From Desulfobacteraceae bacterium (GTDB lineage: Bacteria; Desulfobacterota; Desulfobacteria; Desulfobacterales; JAABTS01): a DNA stretch of 38,061 nt. The translations under genes and the position numbers were made by a program. Where the stretch lies: contig JAABTS010000042.1 of NCBI GenBank assembly GCA_011389735.1, positions 1 to 38,061 of the forward strand, read 5' to 3'. Positions 841 to 23,518 of this stretch are shown here, piece by piece. How positions within the stretch are numbered: position 1 is the stretch's first letter; the number at the start of each line of letters is the position of its first letter. The notes under the pieces were generated by a model, which saw nothing but the letters and a program-made list of their open reading frames with translations, was not told the DNA's origin and searched no databases.

Positions 841-2670
841 TCAGCCCGGATTTGTGTTTTTTTCGACTATAGCCCCTTTTGGGCAGACCTCGATACATAC
901 GCCGCACCCGGAACAGAGGACGGAGTCGATCATTGTCCGGCCTTCTCCGCCGCTTATAAGCGCCGGACATTCAAAATGAGTCGTACAGTATTCGCATTCG
1001 TCGCATTCGTCGGTTATTTCAACTTCGACGGGCGTAAAAGGGGCTGGCCCCGGATTTTTATCCAGGAGGCACCGCCCTTTTGCAATCACAACCGCCGGCC
1101 CCCGGCCATTACAAAACTGAACCGCTTCTTTCAAGAGGGCGATCGTCGGCTTCAATTCATAAGGGTTCACGGTGCGGCAAAATGCGACGCCGCATCCGTT
1201 TACCAGAGATTCAATGTCCACATGAGGAAGCGGTTCCCCGAATGCTCCGAAACCGGACGCCGGCGTCGGCTGATTGCCGGTCATGGCGGTCGTTCCGTTA
1301 TCGAGTATGACCAGGACGAATTCTACCTGTTGAACCACCGCATCCAGTAAAGCGGGAACGCCTGAATGGAAAAACGTTGAATCGCCGATTGTTGCAATAA
1401 TAGGGGATCGTTTTTTCGTTTGCTTGAATGCATGGTGAAATCCCGCCGCCTGGCTGATCGACGCTCCCATGCAAAGTACGGTGTCCACCGCGTTAAGATT
1501 GAGCCCCAGAGTATAACAACCGATATCGCCGGTGTAAATCGCTTTGGGCGCGGCTCGCTTGATCGCGTAAAAAGCGGCCCGGTGCATACAACCGGCGCAG
1601 AGCGTGGGGCGTTTGCCGGGAACGGACGGTTTTTCCACCGATAGCGATTCCAGATGCGTAAATTTTCGTATTATGTTCTCTACGATTTCGGGAAGGAGTT
1701 CGCCGGCGCCAGGGACATGGCCGCTCATCCTGCCTTTTACCCGTCGGCGGTCAGCGAACTGAGTCTCTATAACGCCTGTGGTTTCTTCCAGGATCAGGAT
1801 CTCTTCGTATGTTGACAAAATCAAATCGATAAACGCGGAATGCAGCGGATAAGGTTGAATCACCCGATACATGGGGATTGAATCGAAAAGGCCCAATTCC
1901 TGAAGAATTTCCATCGCATGCGCCGACGCCACGCCCGACGCGATGATGACGCGGGACGATCTTTTAGTCGCCCTGGTTTCGTTTACCATCGCCGGGGCGG
2001 TTTGTTCAAACAAGGCGATTTTCAGGAGCTTTTCTTCGAGCAGCCTGTGCAATTGAAACCGGAATTTCGGAGTAGCCGCCCATCGGCCCGGATTTTTTTC
2101 GAATTCGGGTTCCTGGAACGACTCCGGAAAGGCGTGTTGTTCGATATCCTGCCTTGCATGGCATATGCGAGTGGTCGGCCGGATCATGACAGGGATTTCA
2201 AAGGCCTCCGAAAGCGCAAAGGCGACCCCGGTCATTTCTTTGGCGGTTGAAGGCGAATCCGGGTCCAGAACCGGAATTTTGGCAAGCATGGCCATCAATC
2301 GGCTGTCCTGCTCGGTCTGAGACGAATGGGGGCCCGGATCGTCGGCGCTGATAACGATAAATCCGCCTTTGGTCCCCATGTAGGAAGCGCTCATCAGAGG
2401 ATCCGACGCGACATTCAAACCTACCTGTTTCATGGACACCGCACATCGAAGACCGGAAATAGCCCCTGCATACGCTATCTCAAAAGCGATTTTTTCATTC
2501 ACGGCCCATTGTACATGCACAGGCAGGTTATATCGATTTTTAAAAAATGCGGCGGCGGATAAAATTTCGGACGCCGGCGTTCCCGGATACGATGTAACGA
2601 TCCGGCATCCGTTTTCCAGGAGGCCTCGTGCGATCGTCTCATTTCCCAATAACAGTTTACGTTCGTTCAC
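841..2670 (-). CDS. iorA: Indolepyruvate ferredoxin oxidoreductase, alpha subunit
   Basis: A 609-residue catalytic subunit of the aryl-pyruvate:ferredoxin oxidoreductase, used in fermentation of aromatic amino acids. Visible parts in order: an N-terminal pyrimidine-binding domain with GNETIARGLLE and SYPGTPASEI; a middle domain; a thiamine-diphosphate domain with CAGCMHR and GDIGCYTLG; and a C-terminal ferredoxin domain with CDECEYC and CSGCGVCIEVCP, enough cysteines for two [4Fe-4S] clusters. Length is normal for the family. The start is a GTG at 2668-2670, placed so that the protein begins MNERKLLLGNETIARG as family members do; no clear Shine-Dalgarno precedes it. Repeat copy A1 lies immediately upstream, so the promoter must lie within or beyond that repeat. 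Confidence 0.95.
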   Translation of the reverse strand: MNERKLLLGNETIARGLLENGCRIVTSYPGTPASEILSAAAFFKNRYNLPVHVQWAVNEKIAFEIAYAGAISGLRCAVSMKQVGLNVASDPLMSASYMGTKGGFIVISADDPGPHSSQTEQDSRLMAMLAKIPVLDPDSPSTAKEMTGVAFALSEAFEIPVMIRPTTRICHARQDIEQHAFPESFQEPEFEKNPGRWAATPKFRFQLHRLLEEKLLKIALFEQTAPAMVNETRATKRSSRVIIASGVASAHAMEILQELGLFDSIPMYRVIQPYPLHSAFIDLILSTYEEILILEETTGVIETQFADRRRVKGRMSGHVPGAGELLPEIVENIIRKFTHLESLSVEKPSVPGKRPTLCAGCMHRAAFYAIKRAAPKAIYTGDIGCYTLGLNLNAVDTVLCMGASISQAAGFHHAFKQTKKRSPIIATIGDSTFFHSGVPALLDAVVQQVEFVLVILDNGTTAMTGNQPTPASGFGAFGEPLPHVDIESLVNGCGVAFCRTVNPYELKPTIALLKEAVQFCNGRGPAVVIAKGRCLLDKNPGPAPFTPVEVEITDECDECEYCTTHFECPALISGGEGRTMIDSVLCSGCGVCIEVCPKGAIVEKNTNPG

Positions 2671-2699
2671 AATATGTTTTTAACCCAATTGATCGGTTT

Positions 2700-2866
2700 G
2701 TAAAAGCGGCGGGCCCGGGATATACGAATTTTATTATGTTGAATGTGAGTTTCCCCATTTAGCATTTAACATTTAGCATTCAACATAAATAATTTAGCAT
2801 TGAACACAAAATTCAACAATCCCGGGCCTGCCGCCTTATGAAATTTAATTCCTGAAAAACTATAAT
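2700..2866 (-). repeat. Family A palindromic repeat, long form, copy A1
   Basis: Inverted arms ...gcggcgggcccggga and tcccgggcc...gccttatgaaatttaa...ctata surround an AT-rich core of TTGAATG/TTAAATG-type heptamers (gttgaatg, catttagcatttaac). The outer tip of the left arm is degenerate. It fills the gap between the lipoprotein unit and iorA. Confidence 0.85.
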
Positions 2867-2972
2867 AGTACACGCAGTGTTTCTCCAGCCGGTAACTCAC
2901 TGAAATTGAATATTTGAAGGCTATACAATGCCCCGCCTGTTTTTGTCAAGCATCGAGTTTGCCGGAGGAATG

Positions 2973-3977
2973 TCAGCGCCGGGCGCAAAAGACATGAATT
3001 CGGCAGATTCTCCGCCGCTGGTCGGGAATCGGATAAGGGGGGCGAACATCCGGCGGCGGATCTTCGCCTCGCCCCACGGCCTCCGTGATCAATGTGAATC
3101 TTCCGGCTTTCCCGGTTTTAATCCGCAGGCCCGCAAAATCGATATATTCGGCGACCGCCCGGGCTCTCATTTTCGAAAGGCGTCGGTTTAAAAACCGCCT
3201 CCGTTCCGGTCCGCTTTCCGGCGGCCGGTCATCGATTTGGTTCAGGACGGTTTTCAATAACGGGGATTCTTTTCCAAAATCCAACTGGTCGGTGTATCCG
3301 ATCACTTTAAACCGTATTTCCACGAATTCGAAGGGCGTTTCGGATGCAATGGAAACGGCTTTTGATATCAAATCGCGGATGATCCGGCGTCCGTTTTCAG
3401 ACAATTCACAGCTTTGCCTGGTAAACAGCTCGTCCACCGAAAGCGTTTCAGTAAAAGCGGACCTGAGATCAGAACTCGTTTCCAAAACCGTATCGATATC
3501 GTCGATCACGCGGCTGACGGCTGAAAATGCGTCTTGGTGAGGGTGAATGGCGGGTTCCTGTTTTATGTTTTCAAGAGCGGATGTTTGTTGCTTCGGCAAC
3601 GCCATCGAATCGAATCCGCCGAGTTCGCTGATTTCTTTTTCCAACCGCTGAGCGGCGGGACTGAGAAATTCCCGGTAGTACCGGTTTGTAAGATGCCTGC
3701 ATAAGGCGAGACAGATATCCGCGGCGCGGCAGGCCCCGGCAATTTCGTCAGCTTCCAAATTCAGCCTTATTTGACCGGCGACGATTTCGATCTGCTTGAA
3801 TTCATCCGTATATTGCCGGTCGGCTCCCAAATGTTTGAGGAATTGAACGTAATCTTTTGAAAATTCCACTTTGGAATAGATCCGGCAGTTTTTTTCAGAT
3901 CCGCCTGAAAGCGCGCAACCGGACGCAGCCAGGCAGGTTATAAGGATCAAAGATCGTATGAATAGCGTTTTTCGCAT
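2973..3977 (-). CDS. OmpA-like outer-membrane lipoprotein
   Basis: A 334-residue predicted lipoprotein. Residues 1-21 form a lipoprotein signal peptide with the lipobox-like LAASGC, cysteine 21 being the likely lipid-modified residue. The middle is helical without a recognised domain. The last 150 residues look like an OmpA/MotB peptidoglycan-binding domain: IGYTD near residue 225, then LSKMRARAVAEYI, a GRGE turn, and a basic RRRICRIHV end, with an insertion between the first and second motifs. That fold typically ties the outer membrane or an envelope complex to peptidoglycan. It starts six bases after the stop of the PEGA-repeat gene, so the two are co-transcribed and probably work together. 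Specific function unknown. Confidence 0.75.
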   Translation of the reverse strand: MRKTLFIRSLILITCLAASGCALSGGSEKNCRIYSKVEFSKDYVQFLKHLGADRQYTDEFKQIEIVAGQIRLNLEADEIAGACRAADICLALCRHLTNRYYREFLSPAAQRLEKEISELGGFDSMALPKQQTSALENIKQEPAIHPHQDAFSAVSRVIDDIDTVLETSSDLRSAFTETLSVDELFTRQSCELSENGRRIIRDLISKAVSIASETPFEFVEIRFKVIGYTDQLDFGKESPLLKTVLNQIDDRPPESGPERRRFLNRRLSKMRARAVAEYIDFAGLRIKTGKAGRFTLITEAVGRGEDPPPDVRPPYPIPDQRRRICRIHVFCARR

Positions 3978-3983
3978 GTTTTT

Positions 3984-5654
3984 TTACGCCGCCTTGTTCA
4001 TCCGGACGCCGATTTCCTTTTCAAGCCGTTTCCGGGCGGCTTTGACCCGGCCGACTTTTGGTTTCATGCGGACCTCGAAGTCCGCCAGTTCTTCATACAG
4101 GATTTCAACTTTCCGCATGGTTTCGATCAGATCGGCCAGAACCGAGATAAGCTCGTCGGCGACGTTCTTTTTATCTTGAAGCTCGATTCGTTTCAATGTT
4201 TCGTACCGCTCCAGACGACGGAGCAACGCCTCCTTTTGATGCGCAAGCCGGTGTACGGCCAGTTTGTGGTTCGCGGCCTGCAACCGGGAACGAATGTTGG
4301 CGGCGCCGGGCGGCTCATTGTGATCCGGCTCCGATTCGGAACGAATTTCAATGATTTTCAGATATTGGCCGTAATAATATTTTGAAAGCGCGTAATTGGC
4401 CTCCGAATAGGCTTTCTCGCCCATAGACCGGCAGTATTCCATCATGTTTCCGATTTTTTGTATCGCTTTTTGATTCTCCGGAGAAATGGTAAGGATATCG
4501 AGATAATACCTCAATGCGTTTTCCTTTTCGGGCGTGACAAAGTGTTCCGTGTCGAACAGCGTGTCCGCTTTTTCGAACAGGCGGCTGATAAATGTGAATC
4601 GGTCGATTTTGAGATCGAGCGCCGCAAGCTTCCGTTCCAACTTTTGATCGCCGCCGCGGGCCAGCACAAATTTAGAGAGTTCCGCGGCTTTCCGATAATG
4701 GGCGGCCGCCTGATCGGGTTTCACGGGAGCGTCTTCGTTACCCCATTTTATGTAATTGTTTATCATCCTTCGAATTCGCCGGATTGCGCGATCATTTTCC
4801 GGATCGATCTCCAGAATGGCTTTACAGGCGTCAAAGGCGTTTTCATCGGCGGGGGTTGTGTAATGTTTTCTCTTGAAACAGGCCTCAGCGATTTTATCAA
4901 GCCGGCTTATCTGTTCATGTTTTAATTCCAATTCGTTCAGCCTGTTTTTTATTTTTTCGATCTGACCTGAAAGGATCGGATCGCCGATCACTTTGAGCGC
5001 ATATTCCGCAATAAACAGGTATTGCTGATATGCAAAAACCATACGTCCGAAATTCGCGCCGCGATATTCTTCAGCCAGTTCCAGGTATTTTTTCATCATG
5101 TCGTTGATTTTTTCACGAGCCCTGGAATTGCCCGGATCTTTTTCCAACACCGCCTTATAAATACCAAAGGCGTTTTTTTCATACGGCGTGGTGTATCGTT
5201 CACGCTTGAAATAGTCGTCGCCTTTCTCAAGCAATGTCTCGACGGACGGCGAATTCTCCTTTCGATCTTCATCCGGCGGCGCGTCAATCTTCCTGGTGAC
5301 AGTGGTCCGGCTGTTAAAATTAAATTCCACCTCGGCTGTTTCATTGTGTTTTATCGTGATTTTTTTGCGCTCCGGAGGGTAACCTTTAGTTTTCGCTTCG
5401 ACTACGACGACGCCGATAGGAAAATACCGGCGCTCCAAAGGGTGAGCCGGATGCGCCAGACCTTCGGGCTGGCCGTCAATGGCGATTTTGACATTGGGAA
5501 CATCCACAACGACGCGAATATGGCCCGCTTCATCGTTTTCATCGCCCGAGTCCTCCGTTAGCCGCACGGATACGCAAGTGTCCGGATGCGAAAAAAACAC
5601 AAATTGTATCGCAATTAGAAACGGAATTAAAACGCCGTGCGCGATTCGTATCAT
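3984..5654 (-). CDS. PEGA-domain protein with three long helical repeats
   Basis: A 556-residue exported or membrane-anchored protein. Residues 1-25 are a hydrophobic export signal. Residues about 43-113 resemble a PEGA domain (KIAIDGQPEG, then a PIGVVVVEAKTKGY strand pair). Three repeats follow, each built on YTTP-x4-NAF-x3-KAxLExDPxN-x2-A-x2-I-x2-MM-like signatures. The YTTP/FVTP motifs fall at residues 154, 265 and 372, a period of about 110. The region is probably TPR-like helical. Residues about 460-556 are strongly charged and likely coiled coil. First gene of a unit with the OmpA-like lipoprotein. No enzyme signature is seen; a scaffold or envelope-complex role is an inference. Confidence 0.7.
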   Translation of the reverse strand: MIRIAHGVLIPFLIAIQFVFFSHPDTCVSVRLTEDSGDENDEAGHIRVVVDVPNVKIAIDGQPEGLAHPAHPLERRYFPIGVVVVEAKTKGYPPERKKITIKHNETAEVEFNFNSRTTVTRKIDAPPDEDRKENSPSVETLLEKGDDYFKRERYTTPYEKNAFGIYKAVLEKDPGNSRAREKINDMMKKYLELAEEYRGANFGRMVFAYQQYLFIAEYALKVIGDPILSGQIEKIKNRLNELELKHEQISRLDKIAEACFKRKHYTTPADENAFDACKAILEIDPENDRAIRRIRRMINNYIKWGNEDAPVKPDQAAAHYRKAAELSKFVLARGGDQKLERKLAALDLKIDRFTFISRLFEKADTLFDTEHFVTPEKENALRYYLDILTISPENQKAIQKIGNMMEYCRSMGEKAYSEANYALSKYYYGQYLKIIEIRSESEPDHNEPPGAANIRSRLQAANHKLAVHRLAHQKEALLRRLERYETLKRIELQDKKNVADELISVLADLIETMRKVEILYEELADFEVRMKPKVGRVKAARKRLEKEIGVRMNKAA

Positions 5655-6233
5655 GTCGGTTCGTTTAACCTTGAACGGGTTGTTTCGTGCCGGAACGAAA
5701 ACTTCCTTGCCGCCCGAACACCGTGTTGGATGCGAAATCCGGAAGACGATAGCTGAAAAATCCTATAATATATCAAACGATCCCGGGAATCAAGGAGGAG
5801 TTCAAATTCTCTCCCAATCCACTGAAAAGACAAGAGATCGCCACGGAATAAAGGTTTTGGGAAATTAAATTGCGCAAGGCGGCGGCTTTGAGATATAGCT
5901 TTTCAGATAATTAATATCACTGCGTTGTCGGATCAGGGGATATACGAATTTTATTATGTTGAATGTGAGCCCCCCATTTAACATTTAGCATTCAACATAA
6001 ATAATTCAGCATTCAACACAAAATGCAACTATCCCGGGCCTGCCGTCTTGTGAATTTTTATTTCCGGAAGACTATAGAAGGGGAAACAACCCAGGTCGTG
6101 GTTCGCTGAAGGATAAGGCGCTGAAAGTCAATAGTTGAGGAACTGTATCGATCATATTTTGTCGAATCCTGGTTTCCTCATATGATAAATTCTATTTGCC
6201 CTCGTTATATTCTAAATGATAATTACCCTTCTA
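5655..6233. other. Intergenic stretch, mostly repeat-derived
   Basis: No convincing gene. Short open frames here lack ribosome-binding sites and family signals. A fragment of a family A left arm (gaaattaaattgcgcaaggcgg) sits at about 5858-5886, directly followed by the complete copy A2. The region between 6080 and 6233 is AT-rich and otherwise unremarkable. Confidence 0.6.
5894..6077 (-). repeat. Family A palindromic repeat, long form, copy A2
   Basis: Begins tatagcttttcagataatta and ends tttccggaagactata, with the AT-rich heptamer core (gttgaatg...catttagcattcaac) between the GC-rich inner arms. It lies between the divergent PEGA-protein and SH3-protein genes and is preceded by a solo half copy. 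Confidence 0.88.
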
Positions 6234-6262
6234 TTGACAACCATATCAATCCTAAGTATAAT
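6234..6262 (+). promoter_or_regulatory. Sigma-70 promoter for the SH3b gene
   Basis: Exact consensus hexamers TTGACA (6234-6239) and TATAAT (6257-6262) with a 17-base spacer, in an AT-rich region. The start site would be near 6269, leaving a leader of about 175 bases before the SH3b gene at 6444. Confidence 0.8.
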
Positions 6263-6443
6263 TTTTTAAAATTAATTTAACTAGTTGCTATCTTGATAAT
6301 CTATGATTCGGCGATTTTGATGTGTTTCCCCGTGCGTGACCGTTGAACGGAAAGAAAGGCCCTGTTTTCAATGGTAACATGAAAAAAACGAAAGACTGAA
6401 ACATATCACACGCCGGGAAAAAAGACGGTGCGGAGAAAAGACC

Positions 6444-6905
6444 ATGATGAAACCGGTAATTGAAACGACTCCCATGAAACTAACGATTATATTTTTGACG
6501 GCCCTGATCGGTTCGGCGGCTTTCGTCCATGCCGATGAACGGTATTCCGTCCGTGTTCCTATTGCAAATATCAGATCCGGGCCGGGAACCGGCTATTCAG
6601 TGCTATGGAAAGTCGAAAAAAACCACCCGTTGAATATAGTTCAGGTAAAAGGTTCCTGGTGTAGATTCATCGATTTCGAAGGCGATAAAGGGTGGATATA
6701 TAAATCGTTGATCGATACGGTCCCTTCTATTATTATTGTCAAGGACAATTGCAATATCCGGTCGGGCGCGGGAAGGGATTATCCGGTTAAATATACATCC
6801 GACCGCGGTGTTCCGTATCAAGTGCTGGAACGGAAAGATGGCTGGATTCACATTCAACACGCGGACGGCGATAAGGGATGGATTCATGGTGATTTAGCGT
6901 GGTGA
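6444..6905 (+). CDS. Secreted protein with two SH3b domains
   Basis: A 153-residue protein. After a short N-terminal extension, a signal peptide runs to about residue 30 with a likely cut after FVHA. Two bacterial SH3 domains fill the rest: the first has ANIRSGPG (about 41-48) and KGWIYKSL, the second has CNIRSGAG and DKGWIHGDLAW at the very end. Such domains bind cell-wall peptides or serve as protein-binding modules in the periplasm; nothing catalytic is present. GGAG 11 bases before ATG 6444 favours this start, although the ATG at 6474 would give a more usual signal peptide. Single gene behind the promoter at 6234. Confidence 0.85.
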   Translation: MMKPVIETTPMKLTIIFLTALIGSAAFVHADERYSVRVPIANIRSGPGTGYSVLWKVEKNHPLNIVQVKGSWCRFIDFEGDKGWIYKSLIDTVPSIIIVKDNCNIRSGAGRDYPVKYTSDRGVPYQVLERKDGWIHIQHADGDKGWIHGDLAW

Positions 6906-16270: not shown

Positions 16271-19200
16271 ATGGATTCGATCCAGGGGTATGATATTGTT
16301 CAAGAAATCGAAGCAACCAAATGGTTTTCGGTTTATCGCGGCAAAACGAAAGACGACGCCCAAACGGTGATGATCAAGGTTTTAAAAACCGGAAACCCCA
16401 CTCCCGCCGAAATCGCCCGATTTAAAAAAGAATATGAAATTATAAAGGAAATCGATATTGACGGCGTCCTCAAAATCATCGACATCCATATCCAGGACGG
16501 CGTCGCCGCCCTGATCCTCGAAGATTTCAACGGCGCGCCATTGCCGCAAATCAGCCATGATCTTAAACGGGATCTAAAGGCTTTTTTCCGTATGGCCGCC
16601 GATTTGTCAAACATATTGGGCGATCTGCATAAATCAGGCGTCACTCACTATGATATCAAGCCCCGAAACATTCTCGCAGCCGCCGGCGGCGAAATCCTGA
16701 AAATAACGGGTTTCGGCGCTGATTCTTTGTTGACTCGGGAAAAAGCCGATATCTATGATCCTGAATTCCTTTCGGAGACACTGGCCTATATGTCCCCCGA
16801 GCAGACCGGAAGAACCAACCGGCCCGTGGATTACCGGACGGATCTGTATTCCCTGGGGATTATATTCTACGAAATCCTGACCGGCCGTCCGCCGTTCATA
16901 TCGTCGAATCCGCTGGAAATGATTCACGGACACATTGCCGTCCCGCCAAAATCGCCTCATGAGTTGGATCAATTAATTCCGCGGGCGGTTTCGGACATAA
17001 GCATGAAATTGGTGTTAAAAACGGCTGAGGACCGCTATCAGAGCGGTTACGGTCTGGCGCGTGATTTACAGCGCTGCGGGGAACAACTGGCCGAAACCGG
17101 GAGGATCGAACCGTTTCCACTCGGCGAACAGGATATCTCGTTAAAGCTCGATATCAATTTCAAGTTTATCGGCCGCGGGGATCAACTGGAGCGGCTGAAG
17201 AACTCTTTTGATCGGGTTTGCCGGGGAGAGCCGGCGGCGAGCCTTATCGCCGGACCGCCTGGATCCGGTAAAACGGCTCTGGTCAGGGAATTTCAAAAAA
17301 CCGTTATTGGAAGCGGCTGCCATTTTTTGATGGGTAAATTCGAATCGTTCCGAGAAGGCGAACCTTACAGCGCGATGATCCAGGCGATCAGCGGCCTGAT
17401 TCACCGGATTCTTTCCCGAAACGAATCGGGCGTCGAGTTCTGGAAAAACGCCATATTAAAAGCTGTAACCCCCAACGCCGGGATTATCACCGACGTGGCG
17501 CCGGCGCTCAAACTGGTTATCGGCGAGCAGCCGGAGGTGATAGAACTTGGACCCGAAGAATCCCAAAATCGATTTAACCATGTGTTCCAAAAATTCGTGA
17601 AAGTGTTCGCGACTCCGGAAACACCGGTGGTGCTGGTGCTGGACGATCTTCAGTGGGCCGATTATGCAAGCCTGGATCTTTTACAAACGCTCCTGAACGC
17701 GCATGACATGCGGTATTTCTATTTTATCGGAACCTTCAGGGATTCTGAGGAAAACCATATCGCCAGATTGGAACACGTCGCGGAAAATGTTTCCAATTCA
17801 GGCGTTCGGATGGAGAGGATCGATGTCACGCCGTTGACGGGCGTGGATGTGGAGAAGATGGTTCAAAGCTTATTGAGGAACCAGAGTGCGGAGTCCAAAG
17901 ACCTTGCATCGCTGATTTATAAAAAAACAGCGGGTAATCCTTTTTTCATTCATCGATTCATAAAGGCGCTGTATGAGGAAAATCTTCTGGTTCCTGATCC
18001 CAGGGCGGGATGGATCTGGAATATGGATGCAATTGCGGGGATGGATATCACAGACAACGTGGTTACGCTGATGACGCGCAAAATCGGCCGTCTCGATCCG
18101 ATGCTCCGCAAAACCCTGTCGGCGGCGGCGTGTATCGGAACCGGATTTGATCTTGAGATGGCGGCCGCGTTGACGGATTTGTCCATCGGTGAAACATTGA
18201 CCGTTCTTAAAGACGCTGTGGACGAGGGACTGCTTACGATATCCGGGGAACGTTATCAATTTTCCCATGACCGGGTTCAGGAAGTGGTGAGCGCCTGTAT
18301 TTCCGATTCCGAGAAAGCTAAATTGCATCTCAAAACGGCGAAATATCTGGACCGGCCGGAGATTCTCACGGGGCCTAAAGAAAATTTATTTGCCGTGGTC
18401 AACCATTATAATCATGGAATTGCGCTTTTGAGCGACGAAGAAGCAAAACGGCGGGCGGCGGAACTGAATCTGTCCGCAGCCAAAACCGCCAAAAATACAG
18501 CAGCTTATGAACCGGCTTTCCGATATGCTCGAACAGGAATAAACATCGTTGAATCGATATGCGAGGCCGATGAATCGAAGCGCGAGAAATATTACGATCT
18601 GATTCTCGAACTGAATTTGGAGGCGGCTCAGGCTGCTTACCCAGGCACGTTTTACGATGAATCGGAACATATCACGGATACGATTTTGAAACACGCCCGG
18701 TCGGTGCAAGACAAAATGCGGGCCCATCAAATACGAGTACAAACTCGAATGGCGAGGAACAAGCTTTGGGACGCCATATCGACTGGAATGGAGGGGCTCA
18801 GCCTGATGGGCGTGTCATTTCCCAAAAAACCTGGAAATCTTCGCGTTCTGGCGTCGCTTGTAAAAATAAAACTGCTTATCCTGCGTAAACAGGAAAAAGG
18901 CCTGACCGGTATGCCTCGGATGACCGACCCTGATATTACGGCGGCCATGCGGATTTTGTGTTGTGTGTCATCCGCGGCTTACTGGGCGTCGCCCAATCTG
19001 CTGGCGATGATCGTGTTTAAAATGATCGAGCTTTCCATCCGGCACGGCAACGCCCATAGCTCTCCCTATGCCTACGCGCTCTATGGCCTTATTCTATGTA
19101 GTATCAACGATATCGAAACTGGGTACAGGTTCGGTGAAATCGCCATCGAACTCAAAAACCGCTTGAACGCTCAAGAATACGCGGCCAGAACCATATTTGT

Positions 19201-22200
19201 GGTGAATTGCTTTATCAAACATTGGAAAAACCATATTCGAGATACGTTGGAGGCGTTTGAACAGGCTTACGCTTACGGGCTTGAAACCGGGGACGTTGAA
19301 TTCGCGGCGCACAGCGCCATGGCCTGCTCATATCATCCTTATATGATAGGGACTCCGCTCGCGGAAGTCGAAGCCATGATGGAGACGTACGGAGCAGCCG
19401 CGGAAAGATTGAAACAGATGAGCCCGTTATGGGTTATCCGGATTTATCATCAGGCGGTGCGTATTCTTGTGAACAGGGAGGTTTATTCTCAGGAACTGGA
19501 GGGGCCGGGATATTCGGAAGCGGTGATGCTGCCGGTTCATCTGAAGGCCGGGGATCACACGTCACTTTTTACCTTGTATTTCAACAAGTTAATATTAGCT
19601 TATCTGTTCGGTGACCTGGAAGGCGCCCGGACGTTTTCCGATTTGACCGAACGGGAATGCGATGCTGTAGTTGGGACGGTGGTGTTCGCCGGATACTATT
19701 TTTACGATTCACTGGTTCGTCTTGCGCTATACGACGGCGCGGATCTGCTCGGCCGGATCTCCATACGGCGAAGGGTTCGTCGCAATCAGCGGAAAATCAA
19801 GCGTTGGGCGAAATTCGCGCCAATGAATTATCTGCATAAATTTCATCTCATCGAGGCTGAACGGCGTCGGATCGACGGTGATTGCGAAGGGGCGTTCCAT
19901 TTTTATGAAAAGGCGGCCGAGGGAGCCGTTCAATACGGCTATACCCAGGATGCGGCCATAGCCTATCATCTGGCGGGGGAATACTGTCTTTCGCGCGGTT
20001 TTTCAAAATTCGCCGCGCTTTATTTTCAAAGCGTGCTGGACGCCTATGCCGAATGGGGGGCCCACGCCCTGGCGGATCGTCTGCTTTGCCTGCGCAGCGA
20101 TCAAATTCCGATTCAACGGACCGTTCAGAACGGCCCGTCTTCGGACACGCCTGAACCGCTTTCGGAATCATCGGGAAACAATTTCCAAATCCTGGATTTA
20201 TCCACCATGATCATGGCTTCCCAGGCCTTATCCGAGGAAATTGTTCTCAAACATCTGATGATCAAATTTATGCAGCTTACGCTCAAGAGCGCCGGGGCGC
20301 GAAAATGTTTTATGATTCTTGAAACGGACGGGCGGATGGAGGTGAAGGCCGAAGGCCGGATGAACCGTGACGGGAGCATTACATCCACCGCGGGTTCCGT
20401 TCCTTTGGAATCGCATCGCGAACTTGCGGCGTCGGTGGTCAATTATGCGAGGAGGACGAGTTCCGACCTGATTTTGAACGATCCGGCGGCCGGAGAGGAT
20501 TTTTCCAACGATCCATATATAAAAGAACACCGGCCGGGATCGATTCTTTGTATTCCTATTATCCACAAATCAAAGTTTACGGGTGTATTGTATCTTGAGA
20601 ACGATCTGACAAGCGGCGCTTTTTCGGCGGGGCGGATCGAAGTGTTGAAAGTGCTGTCCACACAGGCGGCCATTTCCATTGAAAACGCGCTGCTGTATGA
20701 AAATTTGAAGCAGGCCGGGACGGCGCTGGCCGAATCCGAGCAGAAATACCGCCTTCTTGCCGAAAACGTGACGGACGTGATCTGGACCATGGATCCAAAA
20801 ACCTTCCGGTTTACTTATGTATCGCCGTCCATTTTGAAAAATACCGGGTATACTCCGGAGGAGACGACCGGGTTGTTCATGAAAGACATATTGACGCCGG
20901 AATCCGGGGCGATCGCACTGAAATCGGTATATGAAGGCGTATACAGGGCAAGCAAAGAAATGGTGGTGAAGCCCAGGCCCATTGAACTCGAGGTCGTTCG
21001 CAAAGACGGATCTACGATTTGGATGGAAGTGTCCACAAATGTATACAAGGACGGAAACGGCGAGTTCACGGGAGTGATCGGCGTCAGCCGTGATATTACG
21101 ATCCGGAAAAGTATCGAAGAAGAGATTCGCCAATTGAACGAAGATCTGGAAAACCGGGTGGCCGAACGCACCGCCCAGCTCGAAGCCGCCAATGAAAAAT
21201 TACGGACGGCGATTGCCCGGGCGCGAAGTCTGGCCAGAGAAGCCGAAGCGGCGAACCGGGCAAAAAGCGAATTTCTGGCCAATATGAGCCATGAAATAAG
21301 GACTCCGATGAACGGGGTGATCGGCATGGCCGAACTGGCGCTTGACTCGGAACCCGCCGGTGAAATGAAAGACTATTTCCTGGTGATTCTAAATTCCGCC
21401 AAATCCCTCCTTCGCGTTATCAATGACATTCTGGATTTTTCAAAGATCGAAGCGGGAAAACTGGCGCTCGAGATGACGGATTTCGAGCCCCGGCCGCTGG
21501 TGGAAAGTATCGCGGATCTGTTTGTCGATGAAGTCAATAAAAAAGGGCTGGAGATGGTGGTGCATATCGATCCGCGAATTCCCGGACGACTGGTGTCCGA
21601 TCCGCTTAGAATTCGACAGGTTCTTTTGAATTTGGCGTCAAACGCCGTGAAATTCACAGAGACGGGCGAAATCGACATTATCTGCGAAAGATCCGCCGTT
21701 CAGGAAAGTGAATCGACCATACCGTCAGGCGATCCTGGGAAATGCATTCTGGCGTTTTCCGTTTCGGACACGGGAATCGGGATCGCTCCGGACATGAAAG
21801 ACAAAATTTTTGAGGCGTTCACTCAGGCGGACAGCTCGACAACTCGAAAATACGGCGGCACCGGCCTGGGCCTGGGAATCTGCAAACGAATCGTGGACAT
21901 GATGGGCGGACGGCTTGTTTTGGAAAGCGAACCGGGGTTGGGAACGGTCTTTCGTTTCAGCGTCGTGTCTGAAATTCCCGAGGACGGTGGGGAAAACGAA
22001 GCCGGGCGTATCATGGAAAAACAGTTCGACGGGTATCGCGCGGCGATTATTGATCCTGCGGTCCGATCATCGGCTTCTATCAAGGAATATCTTGAATATT
22101 TCGGGTTCGAGACCACTGTCGTGAATCGGCCCGAAGATATCCGGGCGAACGTTGATCCCGAATCGTTTAGATTGCTTATAATGAATTCGGGCGCAAAGAA

Positions 22201-23518
22201 TGTGGATGATATTGACGCATTTTTCCGTATCGGGACCGATCCTGCGTTCGCGTCCGCCAAACTGATTCTGTGCCGGGCGGAAACAGGACGGTGTCAATCG
22301 GAACATAGCGGCGGGATTCACGCAGTGATTTCCAGACCGGTCTATATGGAACGGCTCTATAACACGCTGGCGGAGTGCTTCAATCTTCCGGCGCTTACAA
22401 CGGAACCGGCGGGCCGGGAATTGAAATACGCAGGCGCATTCAGAGGCGTCCGGGTGCTGCTCGCCGAAGATCATCCGGTAAACCGTAGAATCGCTTCGGA
22501 ATTGCTCCTGAAGTCGGGTGTCGAGGTCGATACGGCTTCGGAAGGTTTTGAAGCCGTAGACGCTTTTCAGAAGGAAGAATACGATCTAATCCTGATGGAC
22601 GTTCAAATGCCGGGCATGGACGGCATCGAAGCGACCATGCGAATCCGGGATATTGAAAGGCGCAGGAAAACGGACGGCGCGCGGGTTCCCCGGATTCCGA
22701 TCATCGCACTTACCGCATACGCCATGTCCGGAGACCGGGCCCGATGCCTTCGGGCAGGAATGGACGACTATATCTCAAAACCCATTGACCGGAAACAATT
22801 GTTCGAGGCTCTTATGCGGAATCTGGCGGAAGATCCCGGCCGGATTTCCGAAGCATGCCTCGACGACGGTTGCTCCCTGGACGAAACCGATGACCCGGAA
22901 GTGGAGTCGGGGACCATATCCGGCGTGGATTTGAAATCCGGCCTCGCCAGAGTCGGTAATGATCAGGCATTGTTTTTGAGCATCGCCGGAGAGTTTTGTA
23001 ATATACATGCTTCGTTTCCTCTTGAATGCAGCAGGCTTCTTGAAGCCGGAGATTTCAAGGCAATTGAGATGAAAGCCCACGCCATAAAAGGCGCTGCGGC
23101 GAATCTTTCGGCGGGAGGCATTGCCGCGGCGTCGGCGGATCTTCAGGATGCGGCCCGTAATCAAAACGAGGGCCGGTGCATGTTCTTGATCGGAGATATC
23201 GAGAAGATGCTGGCGCGGATGGCCGAAGATGTCGGGACGTATAACGCCGCCGGCGCCGCTCCCGCCAACGCCAATAGCGGCGAACCGTTTGATCCTTCGG
23301 AAACAGCCGGACTACTGAAAGATTTGGACGACGCTCTGGTCGATTTCGATCCCGTGGCGTCAGTCGAATTGATCGGAAAATTGAAATCGTGCCCCGATAT
23401 GAAATCCCGGACTTCCGAACTGGACCGGCTTGGCGGATATATTCATGATTACCGGTTTGACGAGGCGCGGAAGATCCTAGACCGGCTCGCCGGGGCTAAA
23501 TCCAATAGCCGTGAATGA
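16271..23518 (+). CDS. Giant kinase-like/AAA/GAF/PAS hybrid histidine kinase with HPt
   Basis: A 2415-residue cytoplasmic signalling protein. In order: a serine/threonine-kinase-like domain (about 5-265) with Lys36, HYD (Asp128) in place of HRD, and GFG (Gly147) where DFG is required, so phosphotransfer by this domain is doubtful; an AAA/ORC-like ATPase (about 297-600) with Walker A GPPGSGKTA (Lys334) and Walker B DDLQWAD (Asp458-459); a long TPR-like helical region to about 1290; GAF (about 1307-1480); PAS (1486-1605); coiled coil; HisKA with His1674; HATPase with DTGIGI and GGTGLGLG; a degenerate receiver with Asn1972 at the acceptor position; an intact receiver with Asp2110; and HPt with His2270. 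Shorter relatives occur in cyanobacteria and myxobacteria. The last codons come from repeat D3. Only a weak ribosome-binding site is seen. Confidence 0.93.
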   Translation: MDSIQGYDIVQEIEATKWFSVYRGKTKDDAQTVMIKVLKTGNPTPAEIARFKKEYEIIKEIDIDGVLKIIDIHIQDGVAALILEDFNGAPLPQISHDLKRDLKAFFRMAADLSNILGDLHKSGVTHYDIKPRNILAAAGGEILKITGFGADSLLTREKADIYDPEFLSETLAYMSPEQTGRTNRPVDYRTDLYSLGIIFYEILTGRPPFISSNPLEMIHGHIAVPPKSPHELDQLIPRAVSDISMKLVLKTAEDRYQSGYGLARDLQRCGEQLAETGRIEPFPLGEQDISLKLDINFKFIGRGDQLERLKNSFDRVCRGEPAASLIAGPPGSGKTALVREFQKTVIGSGCHFLMGKFESFREGEPYSAMIQAISGLIHRILSRNESGVEFWKNAILKAVTPNAGIITDVAPALKLVIGEQPEVIELGPEESQNRFNHVFQKFVKVFATPETPVVLVLDDLQWADYASLDLLQTLLNAHDMRYFYFIGTFRDSEENHIARLEHVAENVSNSGVRMERIDVTPLTGVDVEKMVQSLLRNQSAESKDLASLIYKKTAGNPFFIHRFIKALYEENLLVPDPRAGWIWNMDAIAGMDITDNVVTLMTRKIGRLDPMLRKTLSAAACIGTGFDLEMAAALTDLSIGETLTVLKDAVDEGLLTISGERYQFSHDRVQEVVSACISDSEKAKLHLKTAKYLDRPEILTGPKENLFAVVNHYNHGIALLSDEEAKRRAAELNLSAAKTAKNTAAYEPAFRYARTGINIVESICEADESKREKYYDLILELNLEAAQAAYPGTFYDESEHITDTILKHARSVQDKMRAHQIRVQTRMARNKLWDAISTGMEGLSLMGVSFPKKPGNLRVLASLVKIKLLILRKQEKGLTGMPRMTDPDITAAMRILCCVSSAAYWASPNLLAMIVFKMIELSIRHGNAHSSPYAYALYGLILCSINDIETGYRFGEIAIELKNRLNAQEYAARTIFVVNCFIKHWKNHIRDTLEAFEQAYAYGLETGDVEFAAHSAMACSYHPYMIGTPLAEVEAMMETYGAAAERLKQMSPLWVIRIYHQAVRILVNREVYSQELEGPGYSEAVMLPVHLKAGDHTSLFTLYFNKLILAYLFGDLEGARTFSDLTERECDAVVGTVVFAGYYFYDSLVRLALYDGADLLGRISIRRRVRRNQRKIKRWAKFAPMNYLHKFHLIEAERRRIDGDCEGAFHFYEKAAEGAVQYGYTQDAAIAYHLAGEYCLSRGFSKFAALYFQSVLDAYAEWGAHALADRLLCLRSDQIPIQRTVQNGPSSDTPEPLSESSGNNFQILDLSTMIMASQALSEEIVLKHLMIKFMQLTLKSAGARKCFMILETDGRMEVKAEGRMNRDGSITSTAGSVPLESHRELAASVVNYARRTSSDLILNDPAAGEDFSNDPYIKEHRPGSILCIPIIHKSKFTGVLYLENDLTSGAFSAGRIEVLKVLSTQAAISIENALLYENLKQAGTALAESEQKYRLLAENVTDVIWTMDPKTFRFTYVSPSILKNTGYTPEETTGLFMKDILTPESGAIALKSVYEGVYRASKEMVVKPRPIELEVVRKDGSTIWMEVSTNVYKDGNGEFTGVIGVSRDITIRKSIEEEIRQLNEDLENRVAERTAQLEAANEKLRTAIARARSLAREAEAANRAKSEFLANMSHEIRTPMNGVIGMAELALDSEPAGEMKDYFLVILNSAKSLLRVINDILDFSKIEAGKLALEMTDFEPRPLVESIADLFVDEVNKKGLEMVVHIDPRIPGRLVSDPLRIRQVLLNLASNAVKFTETGEIDIICERSAVQESESTIPSGDPGKCILAFSVSDTGIGIAPDMKDKIFEAFTQADSSTTRKYGGTGLGLGICKRIVDMMGGRLVLESEPGLGTVFRFSVVSEIPEDGGENEAGRIMEKQFDGYRAAIIDPAVRSSASIKEYLEYFGFETTVVNRPEDIRANVDPESFRLLIMNSGAKNVDDIDAFFRIGTDPAFASAKLILCRAETGRCQSEHSGGIHAVISRPVYMERLYNTLAECFNLPALTTEPAGRELKYAGAFRGVRVLLAEDHPVNRRIASELLLKSGVEVDTASEGFEAVDAFQKEEYDLILMDVQMPGMDGIEATMRIRDIERRRKTDGARVPRIPIIALTAYAMSGDRARCLRAGMDDYISKPIDRKQLFEALMRNLAEDPGRISEACLDDGCSLDETDDPEVESGTISGVDLKSGLARVGNDQALFLSIAGEFCNIHASFPLECSRLLEAGDFKAIEMKAHAIKGAAANLSAGGIAAASADLQDAARNQNEGRCMFLIGDIEKMLARMAEDVGTYNAAGAAPANANSGEPFDPSETAGLLKDLDDALVDFDPVASVELIGKLKSCPDMKSRTSELDRLGGYIHDYRFDEARKILDRLAGAKSNSRE

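Follow-up and report, generated by a model that had tools for sequence, protein, structure and literature searches.

We analysed a stretch of 38,061 nucleotides (contig JAABTS010000042.1 of the Desulfobacteraceae bacterium assembly GCA_011389735.1), referred to as the window, in which two adjacent open reading frames (ORFs) on the minus strand encode a pair of predicted envelope proteins. The upstream ORF (3984-5654) encodes P1, a predicted exported protein of 556 aa with a PEGA-like domain, three TPR-like repeats and a C-terminal helical domain (CT), and the downstream ORF (2973-3977) encodes P2, a predicted outer-membrane lipoprotein of 334 aa with an OmpA-type peptidoglycan-binding domain. 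The P1 stop and the P2 ATG are separated by six bases (3978-3983), which confirms the tight coupling reported in a preliminary description made from the sequence alone. That description laid its emphasis on PEGA and the repeats, and here it did not hold, since by alignment PEGA is seen in just four of nine P1 rows and the number of repeats among P1 relatives ranges from 0 to 4. What is new here is that the constant unit, judging by sequence comparison, is CT together with P2, and neither PEGA nor the repeats.

The comparison used 42 loci picked by P1 or P2 similarity (2060 ORFs), among them 20 selected by P1 (L032-L051) and 20 selected by P2 (L092-L111), the latter being a subset of the places found by the P2 profile. 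The P1 alignment has nine rows and the P2 alignment 12, the window included; a wide P2 profile was made from 33 rows after rows containing X were excluded. Genome counts refer to an order-level set of 194 genomes in which the source genome is the sole one of its family. All folds are single-chain predicted models, and these were compared by Foldseek and VIA.

The CT domain and its position beside P2

CT covers P1 residues 463-556 (3987-4268, minus strand) and is predicted to be helical; it was recognised from profile matches, a held-out test and a census of positions. The final ~90 residues of P1 are common to all nine aligned P1 rows, and leave-one-out profiles recover each of the nine at E 2e-11 or better (one-sequence search). 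No convincing family match for CT was obtained in the scans run. With an iterated profile, 24 CT proteins were identified in 21 of the 42 loci (domain E no higher than 1e-4). For 23 of these, from 20 loci, P2 is encoded downstream on the strand that they occupy, with a gap of 0-933 bases or a slight overlap, and the envelope pair singled out in the preliminary description is thereby supported as a conserved one. The upstream partner is a longer P1-like protein (233-646 aa) in 11 of the 20 loci and a small or Ig-like protein in the rest. By hand count these loci span 14 of the 194 genomes of the order, the window included, and also a KSB3 genome.

Nine of the CT proteins are small (120-176 aa; L093, L094, L095, L096, L103, L104, L105, L110 and L111), and proteins of this kind were found upstream of distant P2s in P2-selected loci. 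One large and one small CT protein stand in a row in each of L094-L096. The five small proteins that we inspected have little beyond a signal-like N-terminus and CT, a Pfam scan of seven of the nine gave nothing over the cut-off, an NCBIfam scan of six gave no match and the repeat profile found no repeat in five (best E 0.4). They seem, as a group, to be without repeats or PEGA. The link between the window CT and the small CT proteins is a transitive one because it runs through intermediate sequences.

On restricting the count to the P1-selected loci, the first CT profile matches 9 of 20, all of them with P2, and P2 is absent from the remaining 11 (p 6e-6); this p value is partly in-sample, because seven of the nine positives were themselves rows of the profile (L034 and L038 were not). 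The P1 relative in L035 has neither CT nor P2, and L039 is cut by a contig end. The iterated profile adds L043, where CT is present and P2 is not, so P2 is found in 9 of the 10 CT-bearing P1-selected loci.

P1 similarity is seen in 33 of the 194 order genomes, in many of them across the repeats only, and the P2 profile matches 20. A contig scan gave 10 loci, nine from Desulfobacterales or Desulfobacteraceae and one from a KSB3 genome, and the window proteins share 19-31% identity with their aligned relatives. Across the phylum, with at most five candidates scored per genome, the P2 profile matches 8 of 395 genomes and is strong only in the source genome; the remaining seven matches (19-27 bits) are confined to the N-terminal part of P2. 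No P1 relative was found in the viral contigs scanned, and none of the matches listed in a literature search, which covered open-licence papers only, deals with the pair or with a CT-like partner.

Domains of P1 and P2

The predicted model of P1 has a mean predicted local distance difference test (pLDDT) of 86.2 and a predicted template modelling score (pTM) of 0.59, and is laid out as a small beta domain (residues 43-111), three alike helical units and then helices at 451-494, 499-524 and 530-555. The units correspond to three repeats at residues 138-248 (4911-5243), 249-355 (4590-4910) and 356-462 (4269-4589), all on the minus strand, and each is modelled as about two hairpins plus a long helix shared with the following unit. 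Within the repeats, YTTP occurs twice (residues 154 and 265) and FVTP once (372), in agreement with the preliminary description, and the cores that it named are DPGN (173), DPEN (284) and SPEN (391). Ungapped self-alignment of P1 gave scores of 124, 98 and 96 at shifts of 111, 107 and 218, respectively, whereas 200 shuffles never exceeded 51; the three repeats are therefore beyond chance.

Sequence and fold searches together indicate that the repeats are TPR-like. Pfam TPR cut-offs are not reached in the window (the best score, to Fis1_TPR_C, is 20.3 vs 25.3), and the relative in L038 clears TPR_19 (25.7 vs 25). A profile match to CTPR-rv4 was obtained at E 7.5e-6, the best Foldseek matches are LGN and CTPR, and VIA gave P58(IPK) at Z 10.0, a score to be read with the root mean square deviation (rmsd) of 18.2 over 267 residues and with the tendency of helical repeats to score middling against many folds. 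P1 shares with TPR proteins the helical hairpins and the DPxN turn, but differs from them in its unit of 107-111 residues, its proline-containing loop (TTPxxxNA) and its long linking helices. The preliminary description had held its proposal open to refutation should the repeats match an ordinary TPR family with a known role; we found a TPR-type fold, and no known role to go with it.

The assignment of the beta domain (5322-5528, minus strand) to PEGA was borne out in part. The model has a transthyretin-like fold (VIA Z 9.7 to 6hif_Y, rmsd 2.1 over 76 residues), with carboxypeptidase D and N domains among the fold matches, yet the PEGA (PF08308) score of 11.5 bits (E 0.28) is under the Pfam cut-off of 20.8; the relative in L053 scores 20.4. 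The N-terminus differs among the nine P1 rows, being PEGA-like in four and another domain in some, with both present in L053; this other domain may be Ig-like, by its appearance to the eye. As a defining feature PEGA was rejected, because by alignment it is missing in L041, L050, L052, L057 and the KSB3 proteins (a Pfam PEGA scan of the L041 and KSB3 proteins gave no match). The repeats were likewise rejected as a defining feature because the same repeat is present in FHA proteins and Ser/Thr kinases without P2. In these it is located in the C-terminal part (L044, L046 and L049 for FHA proteins; L045 and L051 for kinases), all from the same order.

P2 (model pLDDT 79.2, pTM 0.64) starts with a lipoprotein signal (3915-3977, minus strand) that ends in a lipobox-like LAASGC, with Ala at +2, and its Cys21 does not vary across the 12 aligned rows. 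A helical N-terminal part follows in the model (residues 27-173; 3459-3899, minus strand) and then the OmpA-like domain (residues 174-334; 2976-3458, minus strand), for which the predicted model matches the OmpA_C fold at VIA Z 13.5 to 4rha (120 residues, rmsd 2.5) and Foldseek E 2.3e-5. The Pfam OmpA score of the window P2 is 15.8 bits, below the cut-off of 27.2, and that of the L033 P2 (27.9) is just above it. No match was found on searching PDB sequences with P2 as the sole query, and an NCBIfam scan of P1 and P2 returned noise only. Lipobox and fold thus agree with the earlier call of a lipoprotein with a peptidoglycan-binding-like domain. The spacing between Asp230 and Leu267 is 34-36 residues in every one of the 12 rows, as compared with an ordinary OmpA spacing of ~10 residues between these motifs, so that the unusual insertion noticed earlier (about residues 232-258; 3204-3284, minus strand) is real and family-conserved. 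Asp230 and Arg271, the latter within LSxxR, show no variation over the 12 rows and occupy the positions of the diaminopimelate-binding pair of OmpA, which in A. baumannii OmpA is D271 and R286 according to an excerpt of PMC6572160.

Gene neighbourhoods in relatives and in the window

Three kinds of context were seen around the CT-P2 unit. In 6 of the 20 CT-P2 loci (L033, L034, L036, L037, L038 and L050) a PRTase_2 gene directly follows P2, and in four of these (L034, L037, L038 and L050) StiP is found downstream; it may be added that the contigs of L032 and L040 end just past P2. The complete order P1-P2-PRT-StiP-HAD-LEA2 is present in L034 and L037, and L041 reads P1-P2-LEA2. The L037 genes and the L034 StiP were assigned to families by Pfam and all others by phmmer. 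StiP was detected in 6 of the 10 genomes that carry the longer pair and in 11 of the other 184 (p 3e-5, kinship not corrected). On the P2 tree, the loci with PRT linkage do not cluster beyond what shuffling gives (262 of 500 shuffles were as low), and the window P2 sits on a very long branch of 2.64 changes per column, at an uncertain position, so that the window may either have lost the PRT linkage or never have had it. PRTase_2-StiP-HAD genes are also found without P1-P2 in L114, L115 and L116, adjoining TerB in L114 and L116 and TerD in L116 (Pfam). Divergently upstream of the pair lies a UPF0182 membrane protein in L041 (2937-5687, Pfam) and L040 (1-2885, phmmer).

The second context is YfiR. 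A YfiR-like gene follows P2 in all seven loci tested, five of them in the order CT-P2-YfiR (L103, L104, L105, L110 and L111) and two without CT (L101 and L102). A kinase with CHASE8, HAMP, HisKA, HATPase and receiver domains is encoded next door on the opposite strand in L104 and L105 (two of two tested). Tandem P2-like lipoproteins were observed in L101, L102 and L061, followed by a ~170-aa protein, which in L101 and L102 belongs to the YfiR family, and by a large protein, a Cache-MCP in L102. The third context is that of large Ig-like CT proteins, in L094 and L095. By the searches run, neither the window nor the KSB3 loci have a PRT/StiP, YfiR/CHASE8 or large Ig-like context. In L093 (4198-7847) the CT-P2 pair is adjoined by a gene for a PP2C phosphatase and by one whose product carries 13-14 RCC1 repeats.

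In the window, oxidoreductase genes with POR and TPP domains, which we take to be of the indolepyruvate type, lie 302 bases downstream of the pair, and a divergent SH3-domain gene (6444-6905) lies upstream of P1. A promoter scan gave a weak promoter-like site upstream of P1 (5793-5765, minus strand, 9 of 12 consensus matches). A sigma-70-like site matching 12 of 12 consensus positions (TTGACA-17-TATAAT; 6234-6262, plus strand) is located upstream of the SH3-domain gene and divergent from P1. Further away, a hybrid signalling protein of 2415 aa (16271-23518, plus strand) combines Ser/Thr kinase, AAA_16, GAF, PAS, HisKA, HATPase and receiver domains. The source genome gave no PRTase_2, StiP or TerD match at E 0.001, and as it is 96.9% complete this absence is likely, not certain. 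Its one LEA2 gene is apart from the P1-P2 pair.

Possible roles of the pair

Several known systems resemble the pair in part. In YfiBNR, YfiR is sequestered by YfiB at the outer membrane (excerpt of PMC4655355), and a YfiN relative from a YfiBNR-like operon has a CHASE8-GGDEF architecture (excerpt of PMC8294551). P2 is like YfiB in being a predicted outer-membrane lipoprotein with an OmpA-like domain (VIA Z 11.9 to YfiB, a score that many other OmpA-like domains share), and distant P2s adjoin YfiR and, in the two loci tested, the CHASE8 kinase. However, P2 has in addition its ~150-residue helical N-terminal part and, relative to the usual spacing, an insertion of ~26 residues; in the two relatives tested the enzyme is a hybrid histidine kinase instead of a diguanylate cyclase; and the CT protein is extra. 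The window pair was not accepted as a member of YfiBNR itself, since there is no YfiR on its contig and no CHASE8 in the window proteins scanned. With OmpA and Pal, P2 shares the fold and the Asp/Arg pair, but not the insertion, the helical N-terminal part or, in the window, a Pfam score over the OmpA cut-off. PorE (PG1058) of the type IX secretion system is, in the text excerpted from PMC5053529, one outer-membrane lipoprotein combining TPR, propeller, carboxypeptidase-regulatory-like and OmpA_C-like domains, and is proposed there to be a scaffold. P1 and P2 together hold three of these four fold types, with a putatively wall-anchored lipoprotein, except that the folds are split over two proteins and neither model has a propeller.

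The genes, the repeats, the predicted folds, the invariant wall-binding residues, the kept order of CT and P2 and the gene neighbourhoods are observed; from these features we infer that P1 is secreted, P2 lipidated and bound to the wall, and that the two are in contact and may take part in sensing. The reading that we prefer, tentatively and a little short of an even call, is that P1 docks on P2 by way of CT, the two making a wall-anchored relay or scaffold of the YfiB kind. P2 would grip peptidoglycan through its OmpA-like domain from the outer membrane, and P1 would be held in the periplasm by its helical CT domain, while its TPR-like repeats and its PEGA or other N-terminal domain would make up an arm whose length varies and which would recruit a further component. 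The assembly would act like the YfiB side of the YfiBNR relay and report or respond to the state of the envelope. Its outputs would differ by lineage, from YfiR with the CHASE8 hybrid kinase to the PRTase-StiP-HAD-LEA2 operon and the large Ig-like proteins, the core pair alone being visible in the window. We prefer this reading because CT is the part that accompanies P2 when everything else varies, and because YfiR adjoins CT-P2 in five loci.

A number of observations weigh against it. Among the 20 P2-selected loci, 9 have CT and 11 do not (of the latter, L092 has just 404 bases of contig above P2, and a neighbour in L099 matching CT at domain E 0.016 was not counted). The CT protein of L043 has no P2 in its locus and lies between a VgrG-like piece and a Ser/Thr kinase (1663-6386). 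The profile of the small proteins scores the window protein at just E 0.11, and the association of CT with P2 is partly built in, because similarity to P1 or P2 decided which loci were used and the CT profile rows were taken from P2-selected loci. In L042 (2436-4360) a one-repeat protein without CT is followed by a 391-aa protein that is outside the P2 family and has an OmpA-type match of 25.9, just below 27.2; a repeat protein is thus paired with an OmpA-like protein without CT, and CT is therefore unnecessary for such pairing. The long branch of the window P2 could reflect drift or an altered role. Also, no YfiR was seen beside the window pair, the two DUF4154/YfiR genes of the genome being on other contigs in stretches where no P2 or CT was found, and no CHASE8 turned up on scanning 14 of the 22 window proteins, the nearest neighbours of the pair among them.

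As no output is visible in the window, a plain scaffold is nearly as likely. In such an arrangement, PorE-like but split in two, P2 would anchor and the P1 arm would hold a machine or surface assembly without any signalling. This is a real possibility, in keeping with the shared PorE folds, with a repeat number that varies while CT and P2 persist, and with the lack of a visible receiver beside the window pair; the missing propeller, the YfiR that follows CT-P2 in five loci and the failure to find any secretion gene in the scanned window proteins (no search was made for type IX genes) speak against it. It is improbable that the pair is instead an accessory module of a Ter-associated metabolite pathway, in which P1, P2 and the LEA2 lipoprotein would act with PRTase_2, StiP and HAD and the window pair would be a remnant. 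PRTase_2 and StiP enzymes belong to Ter-type clusters. The operon neighbours named above, the six-gene order of L034 and L037, the co-occurrence of StiP and the same enzyme genes by TerD and TerB in L116 all favour such a module, but the source genome lacks PRTase_2, StiP and TerD matches, CT-P2 also occurs with YfiR or with neither, the enzyme set occurs without the pair, and the PRT linkage is unclustered on the P2 tree. The divergence of the window proteins and the presence of the P2 family in just 20 of 194 order genomes would be compatible with two envelope genes adjoining by chance without a functional link, yet order and strand are kept in 20 loci, the KSB3 genome included, and chance adjacency was on that account rejected as very improbable.

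The YfiB-like relay can be taken further, in a form that we consider rather doubtful, whereby the CT proteins would be a dedicated and undescribed component of YfiB-like relays, and P1-P2 a modular wall sensor set on varied outputs in the Desulfobacterales, with YfiR and a CHASE8 hybrid kinase at one end of the range and a Ter-type nucleoside-metabolite operon at the other; the TPR-like repeats would have been added to give an adjustable reach. For Ter systems we follow the 2012 view of Anantharaman and colleagues, as relayed in an excerpt of PMC8115787. If the YfiB-like relay is true, it would add a partner to a well-studied scheme of envelope signalling, and would suggest a route by which Ter-type cytoplasmic enzymes may be informed of the state of the envelope.

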